Below, in pieces: positions 5,270 through 63,113 of a stretch of DNA of 64,000 bases. Source of the stretch: a virus; the IMG/VR virus record IMGVR_UViG_3300024308_000024, positions 1 to 64,000 of that record; one strand, given 5' to 3'. The notes beneath the pieces are model-generated. The model made no database searches. It was not told where the DNA came from and was given only the letters and a program-made list of their open reading frames with translations. The translations under genes were made by a program, and so were the position numbers. Within the stretch, counting starts at the first letter, position 1, and each line of letters begins with the position of its first letter.

Positions 5270-5764
5270 TTAGGAGTGATCGCGGTACTGTTCGATGATT
5301 TGTTGGATCAGATCACTTAACGAAGCAATGCTGTTTTGAACGACTTCAGTGTATTCACCTAACCAGTTGTTGTATTCCATCGCGAGCTCTAAACCAGGAC
5401 CCACGAGGTCCGTTCGCTGAGCGCCTTGTAGGACGGATTGTTCGTACGCGTGTTCTCTTTCACGCAAGGCTTCATAACGGGTACGGAAGGTCGCGATATC
5501 AGAAGTCACACGTCGGGAGAGTTCAGCAATCTCACGTTGACGTTCTTCAGGAGCACGCTTGATGATCTCAATGTGGTCTAAACCCACTTTACCGAAAAAG
5601 GGACCTACATTTAAAAGCTGGGCTGCTTGAGACGACAAGGCTTTTAAGTCAGCGATAGATTTCTTACCGTACTGGGTTGCACGACGAGTGGCGGCTTGGT
5701 CGCCGTACATTTTATCTAAAACGGCAGTGGCCGTTGAAGGTTTGTCTTTTTTAGGCCGATTCAT
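5270..5764 (-). CDS. hypothetical coiled-coil protein, 164 aa
   Basis: First gene of the minus-strand operon. The N-terminus is basic (NRPKKDKPS). Residues 65-115 are strongly helical and charged with heptad character, suggesting a coiled coil, and the C-terminus forms further helices. No recognised domain. Ribosome site AGGAATTAA before ATG. Its place next to the 581-aa protein suggests a shared structural or assembly role (inference). Confidence 0.75.
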   Translation of the reverse strand: MNRPKKDKPSTATAVLDKMYGDQAATRRATQYGKKSIADLKALSSQAAQLLNVGPFFGKVGLDHIEIIKRAPEERQREIAELSRRVTSDIATFRTRYEALREREHAYEQSVLQGAQRTDLVGPGLELAMEYNNWLGEYTEVVQNSIASLSDLIQQIIEQYRDHS

Positions 5765-5868
5765 GTTTAATTCCTTTAGGAGAATAATGAGAAGTCTTTA
5801 GGGAGGTCTGCACAACCATCATATATAAAAAGAACCTCAGTAAAAAGAAACCAAGAAAAGGGTGGAGT
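5765..5868. promoter_or_regulatory. divergent intergenic region
   Basis: Separates the minus-strand operon from the plus-strand RNAP unit and must hold start signals for both. It contains CATATATAAAAAG at 5819-5831, but I do not see the motif shared by the other promoters, nor a clear sigma70 pair. Confidence 0.4.
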
Positions 5869-6690
5869 ATGGACTTATTTCAAACGTGGCTCAGTAGTGT
5901 TGTATCACCAGAACGCTACGGGAAGACCTACGAATTAATCTTGACGTTACAGACCGTACAACCCAAAGGGATAGAGGGAGTACTGGAGAACATCACCAGT
6001 AAGCTCAACGCAGAGCCTACGTACCACTTGTTGTTTTTACTGGAGCAAGGCTTAGCAGACTGTATTGCGTACGCACTACAGCAGTACGAGTTTATTGTCG
6101 TGGACGACATTGAAAAACAAGACTTAAATGTGCTAGGGGACTTCGTAGACACGATCAGTCGTATAGAAGAGCACGCGATGCCTGGAGAGCTACTGGATCG
6201 TTTACGTGCTGCAGAATCTGTGGAGGATAAACTCTTAGCGGTTGCAGGAACATACTACAGCACAGAAGATCGTTTACTGGAGTTGTTCACGTACACGAAC
6301 CCTGCGTACTTCCATGCGTTAGAGTCTAGACTACAAGAGCGTTTACTGTCTGTAGAAGAAGTTTCAGTACAAGCAGAGCTGAGTGGGTTTGCAAAAGCGT
6401 TCTTAGCAGAGCTTCCAGAACAGCACCCACTGCGACATTACGTACAGAGAGGGGGTGTGATAGGGTATCCTTTCCAAGCGTATTTAACGACGTTTGAGTC
6501 GTTGTTAGGACAAACGGGTAGCCCACAAGAGCAAGGGGCGTTATGGTTTGGTTTAGGGGCGTTAGCGTGTTTAGAGAAAGAGCAGATTCCTCTGACGGTG
6601 AAGCAGTACTTGCAAAACTACTACACGGATGCAAACCGTTTAAACCTTGTGTATCGTACCGTGGTACGTTACAGTCAAGCACAGGAGTAA
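5869..6690 (+). CDS. hypothetical protein, 273 aa, upstream of RNAP beta-prime fragment
   Basis: An all-helical-looking acidic protein with no recognised domain. ATG with GGTGGAG just upstream. It ends three bases before the RNA polymerase gene, so the two are cotranscribed and probably translationally coupled. A role with the phage RNA polymerase is possible from this linkage only; no RNAP motif is visible in it. Confidence 0.8.
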   Translation: MDLFQTWLSSVVSPERYGKTYELILTLQTVQPKGIEGVLENITSKLNAEPTYHLLFLLEQGLADCIAYALQQYEFIVVDDIEKQDLNVLGDFVDTISRIEEHAMPGELLDRLRAAESVEDKLLAVAGTYYSTEDRLLELFTYTNPAYFHALESRLQERLLSVEEVSVQAELSGFAKAFLAELPEQHPLRHYVQRGGVIGYPFQAYLTTFESLLGQTGSPQEQGALWFGLGALACLEKEQIPLTVKQYLQNYYTDANRLNLVYRTVVRYSQAQE

Positions 6691-6693
6691 CTC

Positions 6694-8004
6694 GTGGATA
6701 AACGTACGTATTTTATCAAAGCGATTAACGCTGGTGCGTATCGCTGGACGAACTGGGTGATTGACGCGTTTGGAATCCCTGAACTGCGTGAGAGTCCTAC
6801 ACAGGACGACCCGTTACACCCTGAGCAACACTGGCCCTATCAGTTGTACAGCAAAGATGGAAAAGAGCGTTACTTCGTGGACCCAGAGACAGGAGAGGAG
6901 ACGCTGTTGGTAGGTCCTCCTCTGAATGAGCCTTTGTACTTACGGTTAGAGGAAGTGGTGTTCTCTGCAGGGGACTTCGCAAACGTCACGACTGAGCTTG
7001 TGACGACGTATGGCAATGGCTTGTACAATGCCTTTGCGTTACTGTACGCGTTTGGGGGTAGGGTACCGTTTCAGGTAGGTCGGGTAGACATTCCAAAATT
7101 GGAACAGTACCTAGTGTCGAAGTACGTGGAGAGTAATCCAGCAGACGACCAGATCGACACGGGGATGCTGGAGAAGTACTTAGAAGGCTCGCTCCACATG
7201 GAAGGGTTTGCACAACTCTTTGCACCCAGTGGCACGCGTCGTAGTTTCCTACCGCATCCTGATGGTCGCAGACTACGGGATGAGTTGCTGGAGAAACACA
7301 AGGACGAGTTACATGACCCTGTGGTGTTAGCGAACATCGCAAAACAGTTGTCTGACTTAGACCGTCAGTGGATTGCAGAAGACCCAGATGGTGGGTTTAT
7401 CCGTAGTGCAAAAGACTTTGATGTTACCCGTGCAAAGATGTACTACATGTACGGGATGGAATACAACTTCAACGGAGACGGTGGGATACAAGTCATTCCA
7501 CGGTCGTTAAGTGAAGGGTATGACATCAAAAAGCTTCCACCGATGATCAACTCCATGCGGGACGCGTCACACTCTCGGGGTGCGATGACGGCATTGGGGG
7601 GTACGGTAGCGAAAGACACCTTACGGATGACCAGTAACTTACAAGTGAAACTGGAAGACTGTGGGACTCAGCTTGGAGAGTGGGTAGTGTTCACTCCTGA
7701 GAACAAGAATGAGTTTGCTGGGAAGTACTTGATCGTCTCTGGTGGGAAGTCTCGTCTTTTGGATAAAGTCTCGGTAGGAGAGCTAGTAGGAAAACGAGCA
7801 ATGGTGCGTAGCACACAAACATGCAAAGCCAAAGCTCCAGACTACTGTATCTATTGCATGGGTGAGTTTATCCGGGGAAGAGAAACTGCGGTGAGCATTG
7901 CAGAAACTCAAGTCGGCAACCAGCTGATGCTATTGCAGATGAAAAAGATGCACGGTAAAGCACTGTCCGCTGTAGAGTTTGACTTAAGTGTAGAGCTTAC
8001 GTAA
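6694..8004 (+). CDS. phage multisubunit RNA polymerase, beta-prime C-terminal fragment
   Basis: A 436-residue protein matching part of bacterial beta-prime. The section around residues 285-325 (MRDASHSRGAMTALGG... LEDCGT) follows the trigger-loop region, where bacterial beta-prime reads STHGARKGLADTALKTA ... EDDCGT. About residues 375-425, a YCIYCMGEFIRG segment followed by IAETQVGNQLMLLQM corresponds to the bacterial zinc-binding CxxC and the following IAAQSIGEPGTQLTM. phiKZ-like phages split beta and beta-prime over several genes, in a virion and a non-virion enzyme; which of these this belongs to cannot be told here. The catalytic NADFDGD motif is not in this fragment and must be in another gene. 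GTG start directly after the upstream gene. Confidence 0.88.
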   Translation: MDKRTYFIKAINAGAYRWTNWVIDAFGIPELRESPTQDDPLHPEQHWPYQLYSKDGKERYFVDPETGEETLLVGPPLNEPLYLRLEEVVFSAGDFANVTTELVTTYGNGLYNAFALLYAFGGRVPFQVGRVDIPKLEQYLVSKYVESNPADDQIDTGMLEKYLEGSLHMEGFAQLFAPSGTRRSFLPHPDGRRLRDELLEKHKDELHDPVVLANIAKQLSDLDRQWIAEDPDGGFIRSAKDFDVTRAKMYYMYGMEYNFNGDGGIQVIPRSLSEGYDIKKLPPMINSMRDASHSRGAMTALGGTVAKDTLRMTSNLQVKLEDCGTQLGEWVVFTPENKNEFAGKYLIVSGGKSRLLDKVSVGELVGKRAMVRSTQTCKAKAPDYCIYCMGEFIRGRETAVSIAETQVGNQLMLLQMKKMHGKALSAVEFDLSVELT

Positions 8005-8055: not shown

Positions 8056-8085
8056 GTTTCGAAACTTTTATAGGTCTTTAATATG
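8056..8085 (+). promoter_or_regulatory. candidate phage promoter motif, copy B
   Basis: GTTTCGAAAC, TTTTATAGGT, CTTTAATATG, almost identical to the copy at 49032 and placed between the RNAP hairpin terminator and the next gene. Confidence 0.65.
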
Positions 8086-28957: not shown

Positions 28958-29398
28958 CGGTTTGTTCAAGAGTAAACGCGACTTACTCTCCGCGTGGTTG
29001 CCCACACTGCTGCAGGTTTTCCCTGCACGCCCAGACTATATCTTCACCGTGCGCGTTAGAAACGCGTTTAGGTGGGTTCTTATTTCGAAACGCCTTGAGT
29101 GTATACTCCGCTTGCGTCCCTACTCCCCGCTACGGGATAGTCGTTGAACTCTGGTGGTTTAGAACCACCCCAGCTGCTGGTTAACCATTGTTTACAACCC
29201 TTAGCACCTTGCGTCTAACAAAGCTTTTATTTCAGCTTAGGTTATCTCAAAACTTTTTTCTATCTTTCGATGGCATTCACGTCTGTCCTCACGGACTGCG
29301 TTGTAGCGTTTTGAGCTTTAGTGTATTCCAGCAATTAAAGAACCTACACCCACTCTCTTTCGAGAATAGGGGACTCGGTGTGTCGTAACACACCTAGA
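28958..29398 (-). ncRNA. group I intron in DNA polymerase gene
   Basis: Minus strand. Core signatures are GTTCAACGACTATCCCGTAGC-like sequence (P7 5' strand GACTAT, at 29142-29137) and GATATAGTC (P7 3' strand ATAGTC, at 29039-29034), an intact P7 pair. Further 3' are a P9-like hairpin (TGCAGG-GAAAA-CCTGCA) and a GCAA-capped stem (GTGTGG/CCACGC). It shares the core, P9 and 3'-end pattern with the intron in the helicase gene. No homing endonuclease ORF. Splice sites (after 29399, before 28957) are predicted from protein continuity and a terminal G; the P1 pairing is weak, so the 5' site may be off by a few bases. Confidence 0.85.
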
Positions 29399-30862
29399 AT
29401 CGCTTACCCAACATCGTGCTTGAGACCGAAGCTCAGGAAAGTCTGAGCATACGAAAATCCCATTCTCCTCCACTAGGTGTGAAGGAAGCGTGATAATCCA
29501 CCCTTCACGGGAGATCACGTACTCGTCTAACGGGTCTAGCATTTGGTCAGAGATACTACAGAGTACCATCTGGTTTTCTAAACAGAAGAAGTGTAAGTCA
29601 TCCGCTAACTGTTTAGGCGTAGACTTAAACGTGTGGATCTCACCAAACCCTACCAATTCAGGTAACGTCAATTGCAAGTCCATCGTTTTCTCATCCAGAA
29701 GCTCTACACCGATGGAGTCGAATAAGTTATATACCAAGTACTCAATTTTGTATTGAGTCTGCATGACGTAGTGCCATTCTCTCCCAGACTTCCCTTTCGC
29801 TCCATCGAATTTCAGTTTCTGACGTTTGATGTTTTTATCCAGTACGTCATCGAGTTTGTAACTGGATTCCATCCCTGCAGCTTTACGAATCATCGCGTAA
29901 ACGATCATGGCGTCTACCCAGTAAAACGTAGACGGGACGTCAAAAGTGTGCCAGCGTTCATGGGGACTCAACGGTTGTTGTTTCCCAGAGCTTGTGACTT
30001 TGTTTTCAGTCCCTTCGATATACCGTGGGTTTCTGAATTCGTAAGGAACACGAGGGTCACAGAACACCTGACCAACGTCCAGTCCTTCTTCCTGTACAGT
30101 AGCAATGAGTTTAGGTAAGTCGAAGTTGATGTTCCAACACGCCATAAAGTCAGGTTCGAGTTCATGCGCTCGTTGCATGACGTATTTCACTGCTGCCGCA
30201 GGAGAGTCAACGACCTTAAAGTCGACGGTGATCTCACGCTGACGGATGTCTTCACCGATGTGTTTATCAATCGCTGCAAAGAGTCGACGCTCAACGTCTA
30301 CAGTTCCTTCTAAGAACTTTTCTGTAGCAACTAACACGGCGTGTTTCCCACACGTCAGTGAGATTGCGATGATATCCCCAAATTCATCCGAGTCCACAAC
30401 GTCGGTTTCTATGTCGAGTACAGCTAAAGTGGACTTGGAGGATACGTCAGGCCAGCGTTCTTGGTATTTCTTTTTAATCCGTGTCGCAACAGTAGCATCG
30501 GCACCATACACGTACGGAGAGCGCGCTAAACGTCGCAATGGTAAGTCTTTACCGCCTCGTAACCCTAACGCTTGAGAAAGCTTCTCAGGGAGTTTGCGTT
30601 GAGTCGTCGTGTACTTCTGTAAACGACTCAAAGGTTCTGCGATCTTTTTCTCACGGTAGGTGCGCAGTGCAGGTTTTACCACGTAGAAATCCATCGGTGG
30701 GTTATTCACTTGACGGAAGTTGGTGGTTTGTGTTCCGTCTTGAAAATGGATACGTTCTTTGATAAACACCGCATCATCAGAAGACATCGCTCGGTTCGAA
30801 GGCATGTAAATGACATGCTTGCATTCAATCCCTTTGATCTCTTTTTTTGGTTGTTCAGACAT
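29399..30862 (-). CDS. DNA polymerase family B, exon 1 (3'-5' exonuclease and N-terminal part)
   Basis: 488 residues. Exonuclease motifs are all present: Exo I DIET (150-153), Exo II NINFD (244-248) and Exo III YNLFD (378-382). The exon ends at about ...RSQARCWVSD; beyond that the frame runs into intron sequence and stops at 29318, so the unspliced transcript would give a truncated protein with a foreign tail. TAAGGATC before ATG. It is divergent from the metalloprotease gene, with 85 bases between. Replicative polymerase of the phage (family knowledge). Confidence 0.9.
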
Positions 30863-49031: not shown

Positions 49032-49060
49032 GTTTCGAAACTTTTATAGGTATTTAATAT
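49032..49060 (+). promoter_or_regulatory. candidate phage promoter motif, copy F
   Basis: GTTTCGAAAC, TTTTATAGGT, ATTTAATATG: almost identical to copy B. The 5' leader hairpin of copies A-C is not present here. Confidence 0.65.
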
Positions 49061-52035: not shown

Positions 52036-52086
52036 TCGTATAGTTTTGAACCTATTTCTTTTTTTTTGTCTCAGGGAGACATCCCC

Positions 52087-53622
52087 ATGCCTTTGATCAA
52101 CTACATGCTACCAGAGACGTACCAGAGCATCACCCGTCCTGTGGCAGTATCTATTTTAAAACAGGTGTTAGCCAATAGTGGTATACACGACCAAACCTTC
52201 GTGGGGTTCTTTGGAGACCAACAAGTCCTGCGTTTAACAAATTCAGGATGGTTAGAAGAAGGAGTAGGGCCTCAGTTTGACCAACGTCAAGCGGTGTTTG
52301 TGAAACACCAAGAGCTCGAGTACGAACCGACGTTGATCGCGCAGAACTCTACCACGAAAGATCAGAAGTATTTGTTCTTAGACACCGACTTAGGGATCGC
52401 TTACCGTCCCGTTACGACCACGATGGAAGTGACGTTGTCCTTCACGTTCCGCTCTGAAGACAAACAAGACGCGGTACGTTGGAGAGACAACTTCGTAAGG
52501 CAGCTACGGAATAACAAAGCACATCAGCTCCACAAAGTCAGTTACCAGTATCCATTCCCACCTGCAGCGTTTGCTACCCTTTTAGAGTTACATCGTTTAC
52601 GGGAAACCAAACAAGGCTACGCAGAAGACTTCGGTGTGTACTGGAAGAACCACGCTGCACTAGAAAAGTTTACGTTTATTACCAAACTGGATGGTTCGGA
52701 AATGGAACCGTACGTGCAGGAAGACCAGATCAACGTACAAGGGTGGTTCCGTGATACCCTACCTAGTGAACCCAGTAAAACCACCGGTGCAACGTACGAA
52801 GCGACGTTTGACTTTGTGTTCCAGTACCAACGTCCGATTTCGATTATTGGGAAGATTCCTGTATTGGTGCATCAACAGCCCGTACCAGCGAAACTGTATG
52901 ACCGTCTACCGAGTTATAAACCAGAAGCTTTAGCGGATAAAGGATTTATTGACGAAATCCTTGACACACCACGGAGTTTCTCGTGGTTGACGAAAGACTA
53001 CACGGTAGGGATCACTATCCCTCATTACGACGATTGGTTACCGAAGTATCCAAACGCCAACTACTTGAACATCGTCACCTCGTTGCTGTTGATTAACCCA
53101 GACACCCCTCGTACGGTACTGACGTTAACTCAGTTGGGTGAGTACGAAATCGTTCCTGAGCTTTTAGAGTATCTAAAACAAGAACGTGCATTTTTGTTTG
53201 GTGCGAATAACTGTCCAGTACAGATTGAGATCTACGAAGGGGGTGTGCCCATTGACTACACCTACTTAAGTATGGACGAGAACTTCGTGATCACTTGCAG
53301 TCGTGACTTAGACCCACGGTTAGAGTACCGGTTTCGGTTTAACGTCCTGTGGGGCTTAGACCTGCTAGACACACAGACCGAACTACGGTTTCGTCAAAAC
53401 CCTCAGGTGTGTTTAAAGGTCTTACGCTGGGTGTATCCGCCTATGCAACCCCAAGGACTTACTCCTCGGGTGATCGCTAATCGCTTAGTAGAGAAAGAAG
53501 GGTACGACAAGGTCGTAGGACGACTACGCAAAATAGGTCAACAACGTGCAACCAGTTTTGAAGTCCGGTGGTGGATGTTCAATGAGTTACTAATTAAAAC
53601 CCGCAGAGGACGTTTAGCATGA
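52087..53622 (+). CDS. virion structural protein, tail/baseplate block gene 1, 511 aa
   Basis: Start set at ATG 52087 (CAGGGAGA upstream); an earlier TTG is less likely. Strand-rich protein with several repeated beta-type segments; no recognised domain. First of four genes joined by overlapping starts and stops, so translationally coupled. Similar gene blocks in jumbo phages encode tail and baseplate parts; assignment is by context. Confidence 0.65.
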   Translation: MPLINYMLPETYQSITRPVAVSILKQVLANSGIHDQTFVGFFGDQQVLRLTNSGWLEEGVGPQFDQRQAVFVKHQELEYEPTLIAQNSTTKDQKYLFLDTDLGIAYRPVTTTMEVTLSFTFRSEDKQDAVRWRDNFVRQLRNNKAHQLHKVSYQYPFPPAAFATLLELHRLRETKQGYAEDFGVYWKNHAALEKFTFITKLDGSEMEPYVQEDQINVQGWFRDTLPSEPSKTTGATYEATFDFVFQYQRPISIIGKIPVLVHQQPVPAKLYDRLPSYKPEALADKGFIDEILDTPRSFSWLTKDYTVGITIPHYDDWLPKYPNANYLNIVTSLLLINPDTPRTVLTLTQLGEYEIVPELLEYLKQERAFLFGANNCPVQIEIYEGGVPIDYTYLSMDENFVITCSRDLDPRLEYRFRFNVLWGLDLLDTQTELRFRQNPQVCLKVLRWVYPPMQPQGLTPRVIANRLVEKEGYDKVVGRLRKIGQQRATSFEVRWWMFNELLIKTRRGRLA

Positions 53623-54941
53623 GTTTCTTTACCGATGACACCACACCTCCACAAACCCCTGTGGACTTAGTGACTCAACCCTACCGAGGGATTACCAACG
53701 ACACGCGGTTAATCCCAACGACCGATTTACTCACACACGTCAAAGGCTCCAAGTGGGTAGTTACGTACTACAGTCAGGTGTTAGGGGTAGACAGTGAGCC
53801 TACAGCGTACTCACCCAGTATCCCTCCTGCACTCCAGCAGTACGTGCGAATCCGTGAGTTTGAGTTTAAAGTCACGACACCTATTGAGCCTCAGTCCTTA
53901 ACTGAAAACGCTGAGTTCAAAGTCGAAGGGACCGCGTTTGTATTTCCGCACGTGGTACCCAACGTAGGGGATATGTTTATCGCCCCAGTCCGTCCGGGAC
54001 AGCTTGGGTTCTTTACGCTAACGTCAGCTGAGCCGAAGTCGATCTTCCAGCAACCTGCGTATGAAATCCGTTACGAGTTACGTTCCTTACTGGACGACGT
54101 CACGTCACGAGATCTTGAAAAGAAAGTCACTAAGGACGTGATCTACGTTCGTGATTTCTTACGTGTGGGTAGAAACCCAATGTTAGTCGAGTCGGAGTAC
54201 GCACAGTACCAGACGTTACTGACTCTACAGCAGACGTTGATCAACCAGTACTTTGAACAAAACTACGTGCATGAGTTTGAAGCGTTCTTGGTTCCTGACC
54301 AAGACACTACCACGTACGATCCTTACGTCGTAGACTTTATCTCCCACCTGGTTCCGAAAGACCGCTATCGGTTCTACCAGAAAGCGGAACAGCTGGTGTG
54401 CGATGACGTGAACTCAGCAACAGTCACGACACTATTTGACGTTCTACTCAAAGGAGACACGAAGCAGCTGGTGCGGTGTCGTCGTGATTTTGCGTTACTG
54501 CCTACAAAGACGGTATTCCAACCTCCTTTGTACAGAACCATTCGCTACAGTGGGATTGACCTTGTGGTGAAGTCTGCTCAAGACCACCCCAACGCCACAC
54601 GTCCGATTAACTGGATAGGTACCCCACCTACGATCCAATCGTTCAGTGCTCAAATCAGCACCACAGAGCTTTCAGGGCTCTTACACACACAAAGTAGTGT
54701 GTCTGTACCCCTATGGCCTCTAGAGCCCGCCTACGTCGTTTCTGAGGCGTTCTACAGGGACTACGTTGCTACGTGTGTACTAGAGCAAGAACTCAAAGCG
54801 GTGTTAGACAATCAAACCCCTCAGCTCGCCAGGGTATTAACCTTAGCACGCGATCTTGACAACCTCAGTGAAGTACAGCGGTTTTACTTTACTCCTTTAG
54901 TGTTGTTTTTAAGCGTGTATGCTTTAGGAGCGATTAACTAA
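53619..54941 (+). CDS. virion structural protein, tail/baseplate block gene 2, 440 aa
   Basis: Overlaps the upstream gene by 4 bases (ATGA). Acidic, with an N-terminal extended Pro/Thr-rich start and a strand-rich body. No recognised domain; structural protein by context. Confidence 0.63.
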   Translation: MSFFTDDTTPPQTPVDLVTQPYRGITNDTRLIPTTDLLTHVKGSKWVVTYYSQVLGVDSEPTAYSPSIPPALQQYVRIREFEFKVTTPIEPQSLTENAEFKVEGTAFVFPHVVPNVGDMFIAPVRPGQLGFFTLTSAEPKSIFQQPAYEIRYELRSLLDDVTSRDLEKKVTKDVIYVRDFLRVGRNPMLVESEYAQYQTLLTLQQTLINQYFEQNYVHEFEAFLVPDQDTTTYDPYVVDFISHLVPKDRYRFYQKAEQLVCDDVNSATVTTLFDVLLKGDTKQLVRCRRDFALLPTKTVFQPPLYRTIRYSGIDLVVKSAQDHPNATRPINWIGTPPTIQSFSAQISTTELSGLLHTQSSVSVPLWPLEPAYVVSEAFYRDYVATCVLEQELKAVLDNQTPQLARVLTLARDLDNLSEVQRFYFTPLVLFLSVYALGAIN

Positions 54942-55579
54942 TGCGTACGTATCCTTCTTTGGAGGCTACCCCTATCTGGAAGTTGTTTAACTACTTCTGG
55001 TGGGTACAAGCTCCACAAGTCCACTTACTGACTGATCACCACATCCAGTTGTACGGAACTCCCACCAGTGGGGACTTAAAACACGACGAAGCAGCTTTAA
55101 AGCAAATGGTGTTGTGTCAGCTCCCTGCGGTACGAGACCCAGAACAAACTCCACAGATCAAATCGATTCTAGAGTTGATCTTGGATGGCGTTCCAGTGCA
55201 GTTCGAGAAACCCCAAGAAATCGCAAAGTTGTACGACTTACTGGTCGAACACGTCCAAGTCCTCGCGGAGTACTTTAGTGAGTCGATGTTTTTCAGCCAA
55301 CGTGCCATTCAAGCGTCTCCTGAGAAACAACGTGTCTTACAAGACGCGAGTGACTTACAAGAGTTTATCAACGCACTCCACCCTGTGGTAGAGCGATGGC
55401 GACCTGAGCCTGTGGCTCCTCCCTCTGACTTCTTGCAGATGTTGGAGTATTGGAGACACGGTGTGGGCACAAACCCACTCTTTGAACGTGAGCAGAAAAC
55501 CTACACCAACGAAGCCCCTGACGTGTTTAACGCAGCACTCAGTGGTTTAGGTCGGGAGAGGGTACGCGCATGGCGTTAA
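54941..55579 (+). CDS. virion structural protein, tail/baseplate block gene 3, 212 aa
   Basis: Overlaps the previous stop by one base (TAATG). Helical, soluble; no recognised domain. Overlaps the next gene by 10 bases. Confidence 0.65.
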   Translation: MRTYPSLEATPIWKLFNYFWWVQAPQVHLLTDHHIQLYGTPTSGDLKHDEAALKQMVLCQLPAVRDPEQTPQIKSILELILDGVPVQFEKPQEIAKLYDLLVEHVQVLAEYFSESMFFSQRAIQASPEKQRVLQDASDLQEFINALHPVVERWRPEPVAPPSDFLQMLEYWRHGVGTNPLFEREQKTYTNEAPDVFNAALSGLGRERVRAWR

Positions 55580-56910
55580 AACCGATGTTTTACACCGAGG
55601 CAGTACGGCAAATCCAACGTGCCCCTCGGCCTGTGTTTGTACAACTGACGGCTGAGTTTCGAGTCCCCAAAGGAAAGTTCTCTCCATGGAAGGTAGTAAA
55701 CTTTGACCAAGAGAAAGACTTTGTCAAAGGGTTTATGGAAACAAGCTTTCTGGAAGTCTTAATGGTGTTAGAACAATACCGTCAATACGTGTACCCACAC
55801 AGAAACGACTTAAAGGTAGATTTGAAACGGATTGTCGTCGGTGAACTACAGGGAGGGATCATCAAGTCCCTCCCACCTACGCTGCGTACTTACCGTGCTG
55901 TCCTTTTAGAGAACACAGACCCTGGACTCTTAGGACAGAACAGTATGTCAGGTCTTGCACAAGTCAGCGGGACTCAGACCTTTGTCAACGTAAAGTTTCA
56001 GTTGATTCCAATAGAGTTTGATAAACTGCAATACGTTCGTTTTGGTGGACCTTACGTCAACTCCACACCAGGAGATTTACTCAAGTGTTTACTCACCCAA
56101 GCGATCAGCCAAACCAAAGGGTTAGAGAACGAGCGATTAAAGGGGTTGGAGTTTGTGACGCCTGATAACAAAACCGTCAGGAAACAGATCAACATCCAAC
56201 ACGGTGTAGAGCTTTATAACCTACCAGGGTATCTACAGAAACATGGGGGAGGGATCTACAACAACGACATCGGTATTTTTTCACACCGACAGTTATTGTA
56301 TGTATATCCGTTGTATGACACGACGCGATACAACAAAAGTAAATATGCCGTGGACTTTTATATCATCCCACGCAACCAGGTGATCACCGAACGAACCTAC
56401 GACGTAAAGAACGATCGAGTGACTGTTGTAATTACTGGGGCAGTAAAGCATTTTGACTTTAGTGACCAAAAACAAACCTCAGAAGGCAATGGTGCAATGT
56501 TTAGCGTTGCCACCAAACAGTTTAATGAGTTTGTGAAAGTCGAGAACGGAGTGGGTGTTTTACAGCCCGATAAAACCGCAGCGACAGTACAAGTCCAGGA
56601 GCGTGAGTCTAAACTCAACAACGCTCCGATGCTTCAGCGTCGTGTGACGGACAACATCGCACGAGAGCTTTCTAAACTCTCAGCGCGTAAAGGTCAACTG
56701 GCACATTTCGTATGGAATGATGCAGACCCTGAGTTGTTAGTCCCCGGTATGCCCATGCGTATTTTCTATCAAGGCCCACAAGGCTTAGTAGAAGGCTACG
56801 GCACAGTCCTTGGGGTAGAGGCATATACCGCGTTAGAACGTCCTGGGTTTACCACAGAGACGTACCAAACCACGGCTTCGGTCATGGTGTATTTTATCCC
56901 AAAAACTTAA
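55570..56910 (+). CDS. virion structural protein, tail/baseplate block gene 4, 446 aa
   Basis: GGGAGAGGGT before ATG, inside the upstream gene. The C-terminal segment (LVPGMPMRIFYQGPQG ... GTVLGV) resembles the OB-like part of baseplate hub proteins, but this is weak. Possible hub or tail-tip protein. Last of the four-gene block, followed by a long stem. Confidence 0.6.
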   Translation: MALKPMFYTEAVRQIQRAPRPVFVQLTAEFRVPKGKFSPWKVVNFDQEKDFVKGFMETSFLEVLMVLEQYRQYVYPHRNDLKVDLKRIVVGELQGGIIKSLPPTLRTYRAVLLENTDPGLLGQNSMSGLAQVSGTQTFVNVKFQLIPIEFDKLQYVRFGGPYVNSTPGDLLKCLLTQAISQTKGLENERLKGLEFVTPDNKTVRKQINIQHGVELYNLPGYLQKHGGGIYNNDIGIFSHRQLLYVYPLYDTTRYNKSKYAVDFYIIPRNQVITERTYDVKNDRVTVVITGAVKHFDFSDQKQTSEGNGAMFSVATKQFNEFVKVENGVGVLQPDKTAATVQVQERESKLNNAPMLQRRVTDNIARELSKLSARKGQLAHFVWNDADPELLVPGMPMRIFYQGPQGLVEGYGTVLGVEAYTALERPGFTTETYQTTASVMVYFIPKT

Positions 56911-56920
56911 CCGACATAAA

Positions 56921-56951
56921 GCTACTCTAGGGCGCAGTGCCCTAGAGTAGC
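56921..56951 (+). terminator. hairpin terminator
   Basis: GCTACTCTAGGGC / GCCCTAGAGTAGC with GCAGT loop, a perfect 13-bp stem; motif G overlaps its downstream flank. Confidence 0.65.
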
Positions 56952-56953
56952 CT

Positions 56954-56982
56954 GACTCGAATCTTTTATAGATATTTAATAT
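56954..56982 (+). promoter_or_regulatory. candidate phage promoter motif, copy G
   Basis: GACTCGAATC, TTTTATAGAT, ATTTAATATA. Directly follows a terminator and precedes the gene at 57050. Confidence 0.62.
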
Positions 56983-57049
56983 AAAGTTGATATGACGCTT
57001 GACGTCAGATCCCTAGGAATTTTCCACCCAGCCAACAGGAGCAAACACC

Positions 57050-57292
57050 ATGGCAACCTTAGTAAGACCCAACGTAGAAGTCCACCTGAAACAATTAGGT
57101 GAAGTCGGTATCCCAGACGGTTTCGTCGTAGTAAAATCCGGCGAACAAACCGTAAAAGTTGCATACGAGTTAGTAGGTGACGTTCCAGAAGAGTTAGATG
57201 CGCAATTTATCCGTGACATCCAAACTGCTCTGAATGTTGAATTACTAGCCCGCAACTTTCCACAGGCACAACGTGTCTACGTGGGAGCGTGA
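57050..57292 (+). CDS. hypothetical protein, 80 aa
   Basis: CAGGAG before ATG. Small, strand-rich (VEVHLKQLGEVGIPDGFVVV) protein, no recognised domain. Its stop lies in the loop of a terminator hairpin. Confidence 0.72.
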   Translation: MATLVRPNVEVHLKQLGEVGIPDGFVVVKSGEQTVKVAYELVGDVPEELDAQFIRDIQTALNVELLARNFPQAQRVYVGA

Positions 57293-57304
57293 GCTCCCAC
57301 TTTT
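57281..57304 (+). terminator. terminator overlapping a stop codon
   Basis: GTGGGAGC-GTGA-GCTCCCAC followed by TTTT; the TGA stop of the 80-aa gene is in the loop. Confidence 0.78.
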
Positions 57305-57360
57305 ATGCCGCTGTAGAACATTCCCCCATTCCCCCACTCAACTTTTAGGACACATCCACC

Positions 57361-57447
57361 ATGCAAGAACCCCAAACTGTTCAGTTAGCGATCAATGGTA
57401 AAACGTACGTTTTCACAGTGTACGCGATTAATACCAAACCTCGCTAA
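57361..57447 (+). CDS. possible 28-aa peptide
   Basis: ATG at 57361 after TTTTAGGACACATCCACC, stop TAA at 57447. A short strand-like peptide (VQLAINGKTYVFTVYA). Too short to judge; it might be a leader of the following RNA region. Confidence 0.4.
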   Translation: MQEPQTVQLAINGKTYVFTVYAINTKPR

Positions 57448-57522
57448 CCACCTCGTTTGCGTAGCTGCACTCTGACGAGTGTATCTACACGAGCGTTCGT
57501 GCTCGAACATCCGAAGGGAGTT

Positions 57523-57911
57523 TAAGGTATGAAAGATGCGGCAATTTGGCTACTCTCCTTTACAGGAGACAGCAAGAGCTCTCCGGCTTTGGTAAACAAG
57601 GAATACTGCTTGTCCGCGCAGCGGCCAACCGGTGGTTTCCGGCCCACGCAGTCCCCAAGATTACTGCGTCATGTAAGAGTCCCGAAAAGTCCTCCACACG
57701 CGTCTCGTTTGCGTGCCACACGAACAGTCGGCGTAATAAAGGTGAGCGCAGCCTTCCAACCTGCCTTGTCACTGACTTCTAGTCGTCTTCCAAGACACCG
57801 CGACGGCGGCATGACTAAAAGTCACACAACACCTAAACCTACGCTAACGAATGATCGTAGAAATACTCACCCATGTTCGTCCGTAGACCCGTGTTAACCT
57901 TTCATACCTTA
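57523..57911 (+). ncRNA. candidate structured RNA of about 390 nt
   Basis: Closed by a perfect 13-bp long-range stem, TAAGGTATGAAAG (57523-57535) with CTTTCATACCTTA (57899-57911). Inside are many local hairpins: TCTCCT/AGGAGA (57554-57569), ACGCAGT/ACTGCGT (57646-57669), CACGC/GCGTG (57697-57715), GTCTT/AAGAC (57785-57796), TGAC/GTCA (57812-57824) and CTACG/CGTAG (57839-57860). A strong terminator follows. A 122-codon frame (57529-57897) spans it, but its Ser/Pro/Arg/Thr-rich product looks non-natural. No match to RNase P, tmRNA, group I or tRNA signatures was seen. Confidence 0.55.
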
Positions 57912-57916
57912 CTTAG

Positions 57917-57957
57917 CATAGAGGAGGCCTTCGGGCCTCCTCTATGCACTTTTTTTG
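57917..57957. terminator. strong terminator
   Basis: GCATAGAGGAGGCC-TTCG-GGCCTCCTCTATGC, a perfect 14-bp stem, then a T-run on the plus side; also ends the minus-strand membrane gene. Confidence 0.88.
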
Positions 57958-57976
57958 CTTCATTTCTTTTTTTGTA

Positions 57977-58369
57977 TTACGCGCTGTACCAGAGTAAAAA
58001 ACTCCAGTAGGGTAAATACAGCCAGATTGCTTTACTGCGTACAAATCCTTGCAAGACCTTGGTGATGTCCATGTGTTCTTTATACAGAAGTTTTCCTCTA
58101 AGTACAGAGACTCGCTTGAAATGTACTTCAAGGACCCAGAGTATAAACTCCAATAACGCAACAGTAGCGACGGCGTATAACCACTGCTCTAAAAGCACAG
58201 GGGTTTGACGACAGAGCGTATACGCTAAGATACACGCTGACCAAATCGCTGTAAGGTGTCCTGTGACGTTGAGTTGTCTTGACGCAATTCGATGCTCGTG
58301 TTTATTCCAGTAATAGATAAGCACGAGGATACTTTTAAGGAGTATCCCCCACAGATAGTAGTCGATCAT
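57977..58369 (-). CDS. membrane protein, 130 aa
   Basis: Start set at the ATG that overlaps the helicase stop (ATGA). Several hydrophobic segments: about 6-19 (LWGILLKSILVLIY), 40-55, 65-82 and 115-128, with positively charged loops, implying a three- to four-span inner-membrane protein. No recognised family. Last gene of the helicase operon. Confidence 0.72.
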   Translation of the reverse strand: MIDYYLWGILLKSILVLIYYWNKHEHRIASRQLNVTGHLTAIWSACILAYTLCRQTPVLLEQWLYAVATVALLEFILWVLEVHFKRVSVLRGKLLYKEHMDITKVLQGFVRSKAIWLYLPYWSFLLWYSA

Positions 58370-58740
58370 GCTGCAAACCACTCACCGCCATCCCCGTGTA
58401 GGTTAGCGCCCCCTGGACGAGACATACTGGTATCACGACCATGGATGTCATCTCGTATACCACCTACAGGCTCAAACGGAAGTACGGTATACAGATCTGT
58501 CTCAGGTGTCATGCGGGTGCCTAAGCCACGGTGTTTCCCACGTTGTACCGTTAAGTAACTCCGACCATCGAGTTTCACGATATGGATCAACATTTCCATA
58601 TCGACTTCTTGGTCGATCGTTTTACAGGAGTCCCAGTAGCCTTTGTTGGCGATTTCTTTCACGAAGTCATCTACACCATTCCTCAACAAGTACTTCGCCT
58701 CTGTGCTGATCTGAGCCGGTGTCATGACCGCTATTCTTCT
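58366..58740 (-). CDS. DnaB-like replicative helicase, exon 2
   Basis: 124 residues joined to exon 1 after intron removal. It starts RRIAVMTPAQISTEAKYLL and has HIVKLDGRSYLTVQRGKHRG, the DnaB-type 'TPxQLS' and arginine-finger-side segment typical of RecA-fold helicase C-termini. Without splicing it would need its own start. The predicted join (...RRVRNFCA-RRIAVMTP...) keeps the frame and the family pattern. Confidence 0.78.
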   Translation of the reverse strand, partial: RRIAVMTPAQISTEAKYLLRNGVDDFVKEIANKGYWDSCKTIDQEVDMEMLIHIVKLDGRSYLTVQRGKHRGLGTRMTPETDLYTVLPFEPVGGIRDDIHGRDTSMSRPGGANLHGDGGEWFAA

Positions 58741-59129
58741 CTTTTATGTTCGGAGAGGTTCGTGAGACCTCTCCCGCGTCTTACGCTTCACAGCGTGGGT
58801 ACGCAGCTGTAGGCTTTCCCTACAGAACAGACTATATCATTTCATCCTCTACTCTTAGTAGAATAGGAGGAGCTCTCCACTTGGGACTCACTTGAGTCCT
58901 ACTCCCAGCTACGGGATAGTCGTTGAACCTTTCCCCGCGTCTCAAGGACGGGAGGGGACTTGGCTGCTACAGGAGACCTTAGGTCTCACGGTTGCCCATT
59001 GTACATCCGTTTCGTTTTCAAACCGTGGCTTTGGCTTTCGCCTCGCAGTGGTGAAACAGCTTTAGGGGTTTCCAGCAGTTCAGAGAGGTTTCATTAAAAC
59101 CTTACGGCTTTAACGCCCTGTAATTAAGG
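58741..59129 (-). ncRNA. group I intron in helicase gene
   Basis: Minus strand, 389 nt. P7 strands GACTAT (58921-58916) and ATAGTC (58835-58830) pair exactly, within the same GTTCAACGACTATCCCG core as the polymerase intron. A P9-like hairpin (CTGTAGG-GAAA-GCCTACAG) and further 3' stems follow. P1 can form between exon end TGCT/C and GGGCG, with a U-G pair at the cut site. Intron ends in G before AGAAGAATA. No endonuclease ORF is present. Confidence 0.87.
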
Positions 59130-60293
59130 AGCACAAAAGTTTCTTACACGTCTAAATAGGTCACGCACGTCTTGCCCTTGGGCACCAGCCGTACAACCTT
59201 TTTTACTGAACATGTTCAGGTAGTCAATCGTCAGTAGGTGTATCTCGTATCCTTCTGCTTCTAGTTTCAGAATCAACGTAAAGAGTTCTGGGTAACCAAA
59301 GTCAGAGGGGTTTACACGTACGTGGTGGAAGTGGTATCCGTTCACGCCTAAACGTCGCTTCACATAGGACGTCATCTCCTCGTAGGAGACCCTAGTCAAG
59401 TCCGCTGGTTGCTGTGTTTCATTCTCTACTAAAGAAGAGTACAAAAACGTCATGTTGTCTGTCGTAGCGTTTTCAGCGGCTACAACAAGTATCAGTGGCT
59501 TCTTCTTCGGGTCGATCATGTACGGTGTGTTATACAAAGCAACTTGTTTAGTGAGGTTCAGAACCATCCCTGATTTGTAGTTGTGTTGCAGCGCACCGAT
59601 TAAGTAAAAGTCGCCTCGCCTCAGACCGCCGTGCCAACCGAACATCCGAGTCAGCCCCTGCCAGCCTACTTTCAGAATACCCTCAGAAGACGACTCCTCC
59701 TGAGCTTTCTTAAACAAGTCCTGCATTTTCTCTTCGTCAGAAATATCGACATAGTCGACAATCCCTGAAATTCCGTCTATTAAAGCTCCCTCGCGGTGAT
59801 ACACGTAGTGCTCTAACTGTTCGATCATTTCTGCTGCGGCTGAAGCGATGTCGATCTGCTCGCCTGAGTACGCGTGTTTGGCGTAGAACCCTTTGACTTG
59901 TTTTTGAAACTTCCGTAAGTTCACAAAGTCAGAAAGTTCCTGTGCGTATAAAAAGCAACGTTTTTGAATCTCAATGCCTTCTAAGCCATCTGCTAAACCA
60001 TTAGCAAATGCGTCGTAGATCGAATTTTGATCACGACAGATAATCCTTACTCGTTGCAGGAGTGTACCAAGGTTCATCGCACCTTGGTCGGGTTTGTTGA
60101 TATACTGCAGCACTAAACCACGTAACCCCACGACGATCTCTCGTGTACGATCCCCATCGATGTTCTGATCTGGGATAGGGACTTCTTCTAACACGTTGCT
60201 AAGCAATTGTATGGACCCGCCGGACGTGTGTTGTAAACGGCTTTCCCAGTAGGCTAGAGATAAAGCCTGCACCAGAATCATGGTAGCGTCCAT
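59130..60293 (-). CDS. DnaB-like replicative helicase, exon 1
   Basis: 388 residues. The RecA-like part from about 205 contains GALQHNYKSG (233-242) in the Walker A place (an unusual form with Tyr before the Lys), AAEN (272-275, helicase motif H1a) and hLLTIDYLNMF with D357 (Walker B/H4). The N-terminal 200 residues are helical, as in DnaB-type proteins. Exon end predicted at 59130; the unspliced frame reaches a stop 6 bases further on. The phage replication-fork helicase (family knowledge). Confidence 0.87.
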
Positions 60294-60968: not shown

Positions 60969-63113
60969 ATGTCAAAGTTCGCATTAGGCCAATCGGCCGG
61001 TACGTTTGTAGGTAATCTGCAAACACAAGTAAAAGCAGCACTGGCTCGCCAAGCTGCAGATTCTGCCGTAGGCCAAAAGATTCTGTCCGCAGAGTCTCTG
61101 AGCTTCCAGGATACCCAAGCATTAAAAGGTACGTTCAGTTCTGTGAATAACGAACTGGAAGGTGCGTTGAAAACTGCTTTCGAAAACAGTAAAATCGATC
61201 TGACTGGCAACAAAGCTGCGTTAGAGCGTTTAAGCTTAGGTTTAGAAGCCGCTACAGTCGTTGCGTTAGCACGTAACAACTTAAACAGCTGGGGTTCGAA
61301 AGCGGGTGTTCCTTCTGTACAGTGGACTCCAAACGCTCAGAACGGTGAGATGTTATTCCAACCGAATTTCTCTCAGGAAGCTTTCGACCGTACCAACGCT
61401 CAAAACTACATTGAGCAGACCATCACGTGGAACGTACTGTCTGCCCGTCAGGACGATTTCGCTGAAGCGTTTTTCCCAACGATCGTTGCTACTCCTGACC
61501 AATCGATCTTCATGGTGCAAGTAGACCGTACGTTAGTGTACCCAGGCTACAAACACGTGAACGGTGGTGCTGAAGCTGACTTCAACCGTAAGTCTCTGTT
61601 AGATGCAGTGGTAAACCCTGACATCCTGAAAAACAACATCACTGACCTGGTGCCGTACAAAAACCCAGACAACAGTCAGAACGCTTATTTCTCTGCAGTA
61701 GCTGGTTTAGCCTCTACTCGTGCCGTGGGTTCTGTCAACGTTCCTACTGCTCCGCTGGTGTTTGATAAGTCAATCGGTCTGTTAGGTCTGTCTGCTCACC
61801 CAACGCTGCTGAGCAACAACGTGTTCACTGAGCAAGATGCCATTGACCCAGCTGCGAAAGTAGTAGGTGCTTGGTTGAAAGTGACCAAAGCCACTGACGA
61901 AAGCTACGTGTTCGTTGATCTACGTAATGCTCCAGGCACTCAGTTCTTCAAAACGCCAGAAGGCGATTGGAGAGAGATGTTACTGAACATGAACGTCGAC
62001 ACAGTAACGTTCAGTTCTGCAACCAAAGACATCGCTGGTGCTGTGGTTCCTGCGTTTGCTGCATTCACTGGTAAAGTACAAGTGCGTCTGCGCTTCAAAG
62101 GTGATCTGAACGTTCAGTCAGGTAACCTGTACATGTCAGGTCAGGTGGAAATCGTTCGCGTATTCGACGCTAACGGTAACAACATCGGTACTGGCGCAGC
62201 TGACGTGACTGGTGTAACGTTCGAATTAGATAGCTTTGAGTTGTCAGCTCGTCGTACCAACAGCAACTACCGCAGCCGTGGTATCCTGGTGGAACAAAAC
62301 ATCCGTCGTGAAGGTTACACCATCCCAGTACACGCTCCAGTGCACTACACCAAGCCAGTAAACGCCGACGCGTCTTACGATGCTTCTGTGAACACGGAGT
62401 CACTGATCAACACCACTCGCGTACAAACGAACAACGCTGCTGTACAGCAACTGCTGGACAACGCGTCTCTGATTCGTTCTGCGTATGAAGCGTACCAGGA
62501 CACTGGTATCGTTCCAAAAGTGGAAGGTTTAGGTCGTGAGTTAGTGAAGCCTTACTACCGTTACATCAACGTGAAAATGTCTGAAGTGTTAAACAGCGTT
62601 CGTTCTCAGGACAAGCTGGCTGACATCCAAGGTTATTTCACCACGTTGATCGGTCAGGCTGTTGCTGAAGCAATGACTGTGTCTGGTTACTGGGCAGCCG
62701 TGTCAGCAATGACTGGCGGTGTAGAACAGAAACCAACCGTCGTAATGGGTACAGATACTACATTACCACAATACCTGATGGTACAAGGTGATGACCGTAC
62801 TGTAGGTCCTCTGCTGAAACCAGAAGTGGTTTCTACCAACAACCGTTTAATGCGCGGTAAGATCATGATCGCCCTGCGTTTAACTGATGGTGCTGAGTAC
62901 CACCCACTGAACTACGGTAACCACATTTGGATTCCTGAGTTAGTCGGTGAAATCCAGATGATCCGCGATGGTTCATTAGCGATGGAAGTAGGCGTACAAC
63001 GTCGTAACCGTCACATCCTGAACTGCCCAGTGCAGATCGAGATCGACGTAGAAGAACTGGAACTGATCACCTCTGGTGCAGTCGAGTTCATCAACAACCC
63101 AGTAACGCCATAA
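60969..63113 (+). CDS. major capsid protein, phiKZ/SPN3US-like, 714 aa
   Basis: GTAAAGGAAGG before ATG, good for strong expression. The N-terminus has KILSAE (37-42), an S-A-E candidate propeptide site, then a helix (SLSFQDTQ). The body is strand-rich with Gly and Asn, as in HK97-type jumbo-phage capsid proteins. The length is near that of phiKZ gp120 (about 750). Identification rests on length, site, codon use, position and overall pattern. Virion head shell (family knowledge). Confidence 0.8.
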   Translation: MSKFALGQSAGTFVGNLQTQVKAALARQAADSAVGQKILSAESLSFQDTQALKGTFSSVNNELEGALKTAFENSKIDLTGNKAALERLSLGLEAATVVALARNNLNSWGSKAGVPSVQWTPNAQNGEMLFQPNFSQEAFDRTNAQNYIEQTITWNVLSARQDDFAEAFFPTIVATPDQSIFMVQVDRTLVYPGYKHVNGGAEADFNRKSLLDAVVNPDILKNNITDLVPYKNPDNSQNAYFSAVAGLASTRAVGSVNVPTAPLVFDKSIGLLGLSAHPTLLSNNVFTEQDAIDPAAKVVGAWLKVTKATDESYVFVDLRNAPGTQFFKTPEGDWREMLLNMNVDTVTFSSATKDIAGAVVPAFAAFTGKVQVRLRFKGDLNVQSGNLYMSGQVEIVRVFDANGNNIGTGAADVTGVTFELDSFELSARRTNSNYRSRGILVEQNIRREGYTIPVHAPVHYTKPVNADASYDASVNTESLINTTRVQTNNAAVQQLLDNASLIRSAYEAYQDTGIVPKVEGLGRELVKPYYRYINVKMSEVLNSVRSQDKLADIQGYFTTLIGQAVAEAMTVSGYWAAVSAMTGGVEQKPTVVMGTDTTLPQYLMVQGDDRTVGPLLKPEVVSTNNRLMRGKIMIALRLTDGAEYHPLNYGNHIWIPELVGEIQMIRDGSLAMEVGVQRRNRHILNCPVQIEIDVEELELITSGAVEFINNPVTP

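Follow-up and report, generated by a model that had tools for sequence, protein, structure and literature searches.

The locus considered here raises a simple question: does the stretch at positions 57523-57911 of a viral DNA fragment specify a structured noncoding RNA, or is it an ordinary untranslated stretch, a DNA element or a gene? A first-pass annotation, made from the letters of the sequence, had proposed a large structured noncoding RNA closed by a 13-bp long-range stem. We analyzed the stretch within a window of 64,000 nt, which comprises positions 1 to 64,000 of the IMG/VR record IMGVR_UViG_3300024308_000024 (111,815 bases). We conclude that the noncoding feature is real and well placed and that it makes a fair candidate for an RNA with a predicted structure. 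As the best explanation, we tentatively favor a terminator-anchored noncoding RNA or 3' UTR that belongs to an accessory cassette of a phiKZ-like jumbo phage and is perhaps processed out.

The jumbo-phage setting assumed by the first-pass annotation was borne out. The window belongs to a phiKZ-like jumbo phage: its frame at 60969-63113 is assigned to the major head protein family phrog_3231 (E 1.1e-145), and among four genes at 52066-56910, the three tested match the phage families phrog_3289, phrog_3013 and phrog_3245. Relatives of the head protein are found in 202 phage records, every one of them below 60% identity. A second record of the same virus (IMGVR_UViG_3300024239_000015, 233,377 bases; hereafter the 233-kb record) is identical across the 541 bases compared.

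Closing stem, terminator and predicted fold

The inverted arms were re-found exactly where the annotation had placed them. The 5' arm TAAGGTATGAAAG (57523-57535, plus strand) is the perfect complement of the 3' arm CTTTCATACCTTA (57899-57911, plus strand), which is its exact inverted copy at a distance of 363 nt; the mean pair probability of the stem is 0.98. The TA that apparently flanks the arms is part of the palindrome and is uninformative. The strong terminator reported directly after the stem is also real. This intrinsic terminator, GCATAGAGGAGGCC-TTCG-GGCCTCCTCTATGC (57916-57947, plus strand), combines a 14-bp stem and a TTCG loop with TTTTTTT soon after, and its hairpin begins 4 nt past the 3' arm.

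We compared both features with the background of the window. Within the window, no other 13-bp inverted pair has a spacing of 100-800 nt, while 40 first-order Markov simulations contained 1.25 such pairs on average and five at most; therefore the 13-bp stem by itself is not unusual. In contrast, its position abutting the terminator is unusual. Among 41 terminator-like sites on both strands of the window, the closing stem is the only case of an arm of at least 10 bp ending no more than 10 nt upstream, and the next-best arm beside any of these sites has 9 bp. At random sites, an arm of at least 13 bp was found in 2 of 5000 cases, both of which may be the closing stem itself, corresponding to an expectation of about 0.016 among 41 terminator-like sites in a test that was designed post hoc, with the stem already seen.

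The proposal of a large structured noncoding RNA stood in part: the stretch is noncoding, stem-closed and followed by a terminator, but its large structure is a prediction. The 389-nt fold has a z-score of about -3.0 to -3.5 against shuffles (-2.47 over 400 nt, where 1 of 100 shuffles was equally good), whereas 8 of the 98 segments of 389 nt sampled from the window lie at or below -3.05 (100 segments drawn at random, two overlapping 56900-59200 dropped, 25 shuffles each), and the inner 363 nt without the stem reach only -1.4 to -1.6. The fold strength is concentrated in the 3' half (57716-57898, z -3.24; the 5' part, 57536-57715, has z -0.72). As a whole, the antisense strand folds equally well (z -3.1 to -3.2). 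Two group I introns of the same phage served as yardsticks, the one in the helicase gene scoring -2.3 and the one in the DNA polymerase gene -5.0, so a genuine RNA of this phage can score weaker or much stronger than the stretch.

The predicted fold contains two inner domains with a single hairpin between them. The first, multibranched and weakly supported, spans 57540-57691 (plus strand; mean pair probabilities of its minimum-free-energy helices 0.52-0.93). The second, better supported, spans 57718-57894 (plus strand) and includes an 11-pair helix at 57773-57784/57813-57824 (p 0.98). Mean pair probabilities of 0.98-1.0 were obtained for the closing stem, this helix and the terminator. In this fold, 57512-57521 also pairs with the T run of the terminator, which could weaken termination; we gave this pairing no weight.

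At least six enclosed perfect local hairpins had been reported. We counted seven with 4-bp stems of at least three G/C pairs (2.3% of 363-nt window chunks reach seven), six with stems of 5 bp or more (10.8% of chunks reach six) and only two with stems of 6 bp or more (39% of chunks reach two). Against these backgrounds, the local hairpins represent a mild excess. The GC content of the stretch is 0.517, compared with 0.472 for the window, and its plus strand holds 115 C and 86 G, leaving the antisense strand richer in G.

The accessory slot and its cassette

The stretch lies between a 446-aa virion gene and a helicase gene. Among 17 loci compared from related phages, five hold both genes (L012 only the end of the virion gene). 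The slot was read in L016, L022, L023 and L013, with the unannotated L012 left out. The first three share the gene order and have a terminator-like hairpin after the virion gene, and by eye no such stretch is seen in them; in L016, one further gene and hairpin lie beyond the first hairpin. In L013, the slot contains annotated genes and the largest gap is 244 nt. The absence of the block from three syntenic relatives marks the slot as accessory, and we read it as a variable position that probably carries cargo. On inspection by eye, the slot of L016 is occupied by an acetyltransferase-like frame (5400-5870) that follows the virion gene, and an HNH-like frame at 6720-7640 of the same locus is located between two apparent versions of the 3' end of the helicase gene.

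No homologue of the stretch was found, the only other copy being the identical one in the 233-kb record. In phages, blastn found no DNA homologue at E 1e-5 (8 records gave 20-30-base matches at E ~6), and none was found in plasmids. The stem pattern had no match in IMG/VR, three exact inner patterns hit the same virus only, and one such pattern had no match in genome_contigs. When 16 records of distant relatives were searched whole, 9 gave matches at E <=10, the best of 20 bases at E 0.0685, which we took as chance. As IMG/VR queries, the major head protein, the 446-aa protein and the 80-aa protein g80 described below recovered this virus only; in genome_contigs, the head protein had no match. 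A three-sequence alignment search identified 11 further loci at 30-33% identity, too distant for an RNA alignment.

A serious rival, which may quite possibly be correct, is an ordinary long untranslated stretch or a decayed accessory gene in which a 13-bp pair arose by chance and which has no RNA function. Simulated windows produce such pairs at such spacing, the inner fold scarcely differs from background, the slot varies between relatives, and the collections searched gave no homologue. However, this explanation does not anticipate a stem that abuts the terminator as the sole case among 41, nor a GC content above that of the window, nor seven G/C-rich 4-bp hairpins.

A DNA-level element appears unlikely, whether a site of replication or packaging or a small insertion bounded by 13-bp terminal inverted repeats. 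It would be consistent with the perfect inverted repeats at both ends of a noncoding stretch whose composition differs, with the absence of the block from the three syntenic relatives and with the equal fold strength of both strands. On the other hand, the 233-kb record holds no second copy of the stretch (two other matches are the terminator part), the arm occurs exactly there only as the closing pair, plus one site with two mismatches, and such a tight fit to the terminator would be unexpected.

The order of elements in the slot, from the virion gene toward the helicase gene, is a promoter-like motif, g80, a 28-codon frame, the candidate RNA and the terminator. The promoter-like motif TCGAATCTTTTATAGATATTTAATA (56957-56981, plus strand), a putative promoter, has three zero-mismatch copies in the window. 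These copies of TCGAANCTTTTATAGNTNTTTAATA lie at 8059-8083, 49035-49059 and 56957-56981; 100 shuffles contained none. The 233-kb record holds five matches (three exact, two with one mismatch), all on the same strand as the copy at 56957, and the control none; a looser form gave ten matches with no more than three mismatches, five of them exact, and again none in the control. By eye, the copies at the five loci read each precede an apparent gene start. The well conserved motif TCGAANCTTTTATAGNTNTTTAATA is much longer than the TATG consensus given for phiKZ late promoters in the available part of PMC7618050.

The first gene of the cassette, g80 (57050-57292, plus strand), encodes an accessory 80-aa protein of unknown function. 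Its codon score of 0.467 is typical for genes here, no PHROG or phage homologue was found for it, and a single-sequence structure model is alpha/beta with modest confidence (pLDDT 57.6). A terminator-like hairpin with a weak T run is located at its end (57281-57300, plus strand), and we assume read-through. The 28-codon frame (57361-57447, plus strand; codon score 0.31) possibly encodes a small peptide and matches no PHROG or Pfam family. The following segment, 57448-57522, has a fold z of -2.8 and includes an upstream hairpin of 16 pairs (57455-57494, plus strand; mean pair probability 0.98). An exact 11-nt direct repeat, CTCGTTTGCGT, occurs at 57452-57462, before the candidate RNA, and at 57704-57714, inside it.

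Directly before 57523, no promoter was recognised: the best local score is 0.18 (rank 248), and there is no sigma-70 site. The phiKZ-type promoter consensus is a TATG ending at +1, according to the portion of PMC7618050 consulted, and a TATG is present at 57528-57531, within the 5' arm. We set it aside as a start because four bases are expected by chance and because a start there would cut the stem.

From this layout, we infer how the favored noncoding RNA or 3' UTR might arise and act. Transcription from a phage promoter at 56957 would be read through g80 and the 28-codon frame into the noncoding stretch and would end at 57947; alternatively, it would start at a promoter unrecognised here. 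The 13-bp stem would bring both ends of the stretch together beside the terminator hairpin, and the product would be a compact RNA of ~390 nt with protected ends, processed out of the longer transcript. The processing of a 3' UTR that is assumed for phiKZ (PMC8545117, seen in part) would be a precedent for such release. The most likely work of the product would be that of a trans-acting or decoy RNA, or of a 3' element stabilising the cassette mRNA. In support, we count the noncoding verdict of the codon and structure models, the stem at the terminator, the upstream motif, the absence of the block from the three syntenic relatives and a fold of the whole stretch that beats nearly all shuffles, with the 3' half as the best-folding part. 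Against it, we count the inner fold near that of shuffles, the 8 of 98 background segments that fold as well, the far stronger fold of the DNA polymerase intron, the equal and G-richer antisense strand, the lack of a recognised promoter before 57523, the hairpin between g80 and the region and the failure to find a homologue.

A more speculative extension, which we regard as improbable, is a new class of large stem-closed phage RNAs of ~390 nt that are cargo of a variable slot in phiKZ-like jumbo phages, with g80 as a small partner protein and a phage promoter shared with it, and that act in trans against rival phages or on the host or its defences. If a stable RNA of 390 nt were produced, it would indicate RNA cargo in the accessory slots of jumbo phages and would offer a concrete target for transcript mapping. 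Since the stretch is represented by a single sequence from a single virus, its present worth is that of a candidate.

The 122-codon open frame

The stretch is open almost throughout, in a 122-codon frame (57529-57897, plus strand) whose composition had been called unnatural by the first-pass annotation. Our codon model agrees. At -0.125 bits per codon, the frame scores lower than every one of 111 in-frame chunks of equal length, the lowest of which has -0.0098; 333 off-frame chunks have a median of -0.216 and a 95th percentile of -0.024. The model was trained on 53 long frames, and because the in-frame chunks were cut from these same training genes, their scores are flattered. By the same measure, a neighbouring minus-strand frame (57977-58381) that is perhaps a gene scores only 0.045.

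We do not regard the 122-codon frame as a gene, and a real 122-aa protein is very improbable. Such a protein would start within the 5' arm, so that the stem could hide its start codon, and two observations agree with it: GGGAG ends 8 nt upstream of the ATG, and a closed frame of this length appears in just 1.9% of 1000 shuffles of 57448-57960, which we also count against the noncoding reading. However, the codon score lies under all 111 in-frame chunks, and the search for relatives produced no credible PHROG, Pfam or phage match, the sole PHROG match having E 0.033 over 16 residues. The single-sequence structure model (pTM 0.13) is without secondary structure, in contrast to g80, which gave the alpha/beta model with pTM 0.40 when modelled the same way.

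Known RNA families and the group I introns of the phage

The first-pass annotation had recognised no known family signature, and our Rfam searches agree: there was no match at gathering scores, nor for the whole window at E <=1, including GOLLD, ROOL and HEARO. A search of 56900-59200 at E <=5 found the neighbouring intron described below and otherwise only a minus-strand match to AbsR25 (E 0.6) that overlaps the terminator. The likeness to large phage RNAs suggested by that annotation therefore holds only in general terms. According to the available part of PMC12286853, GOLLD and ROOL RNAs are, like the stretch, noncoding, phage-borne and of unknown function, with many helices, which are only predicted here. 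Many GOLLD RNAs exceed 800 nt, more than twice the 389 nt of the stretch, and GOLLD and ROOL often lie near tRNA islands, whereas the window contains no tRNA.

A precedent is offered by the UTR-derived RNAs of phiKZ. A review states that noncoding RNAs are expressed by phiKZ (PMC13282480, seen in part). Two candidates are named in the portion of PMC8545117 consulted, both short UTR pieces: an abundant RNA of ~100 nt from the PHIKZ298 3' UTR, assumed to be a processing product, with a second stem-loop that is possibly a terminator, and an RNA of ~180 nt from the p40 5' UTR (Gerovac et al. 2021). The candidate RNA shares with these a phiKZ-kind jumbo phage and a noncoding stretch with hairpins after a gene, and with the PHIKZ298 RNA a putative terminator at the 3' end. 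The likeness is one of description, and the stretch, which is known from sequence, exceeds the PHIKZ298 RNA in length about fourfold and is closed by a long-range stem. In the open-licence literature on noncoding RNAs of jumbo phages, we found nothing on such an RNA.

Group I introns (RF00028) were considered because the phage carries several, of about 310-390 nt, in the same genome and likewise noncoding. Unlike these, the stretch has no match to the catalytic core (none on the plus strand at 57.5 kb, and none of the six matches in the 233-kb record is located there), lies outside any gene and is followed by a terminator. A divergent member of a known family (group I intron, GOLLD, ROOL or HEARO) is thus nearly excluded: one intron match lies only 0.9 kb away, but the 2.3-kb search that finds it returned no plus-strand Rfam match, the whole window likewise gave none, and the terminator follows at once with no downstream exon.

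The group I intron match at 58807-59136 (minus strand; 47.2 bits, E 2.5e-10) is just below the gathering score of 50 and splits a DnaB-like helicase gene, whose two frames match phrog_3213 at 1-384 and 391-506. Both helicase parts are present in 15 of the 17 relative loci, with a gap of 15-18 nt in all 15, i.e. without the intron. A second match, at 29010-29399 (minus strand; 34.4 bits, E 4.8e-5, likewise short of the gathering score), splits the DNA polymerase gene into frames matching phrog_3011 at 5-494 and 495-572. Four more matches (L031, L032, L034 and L036) are found in the 233-kb record outside the window; of its six in total, one is above the family cut-off, and in the control weak matches occurred in 8 of 14 genomes, with matches above the cut-off in two. 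These four lie within or next to genes for RNA polymerase subunits (phrog_3295, which is split at 403, phrog_2987 and phrog_2986), and an HNH endonuclease frame is located between two of them.
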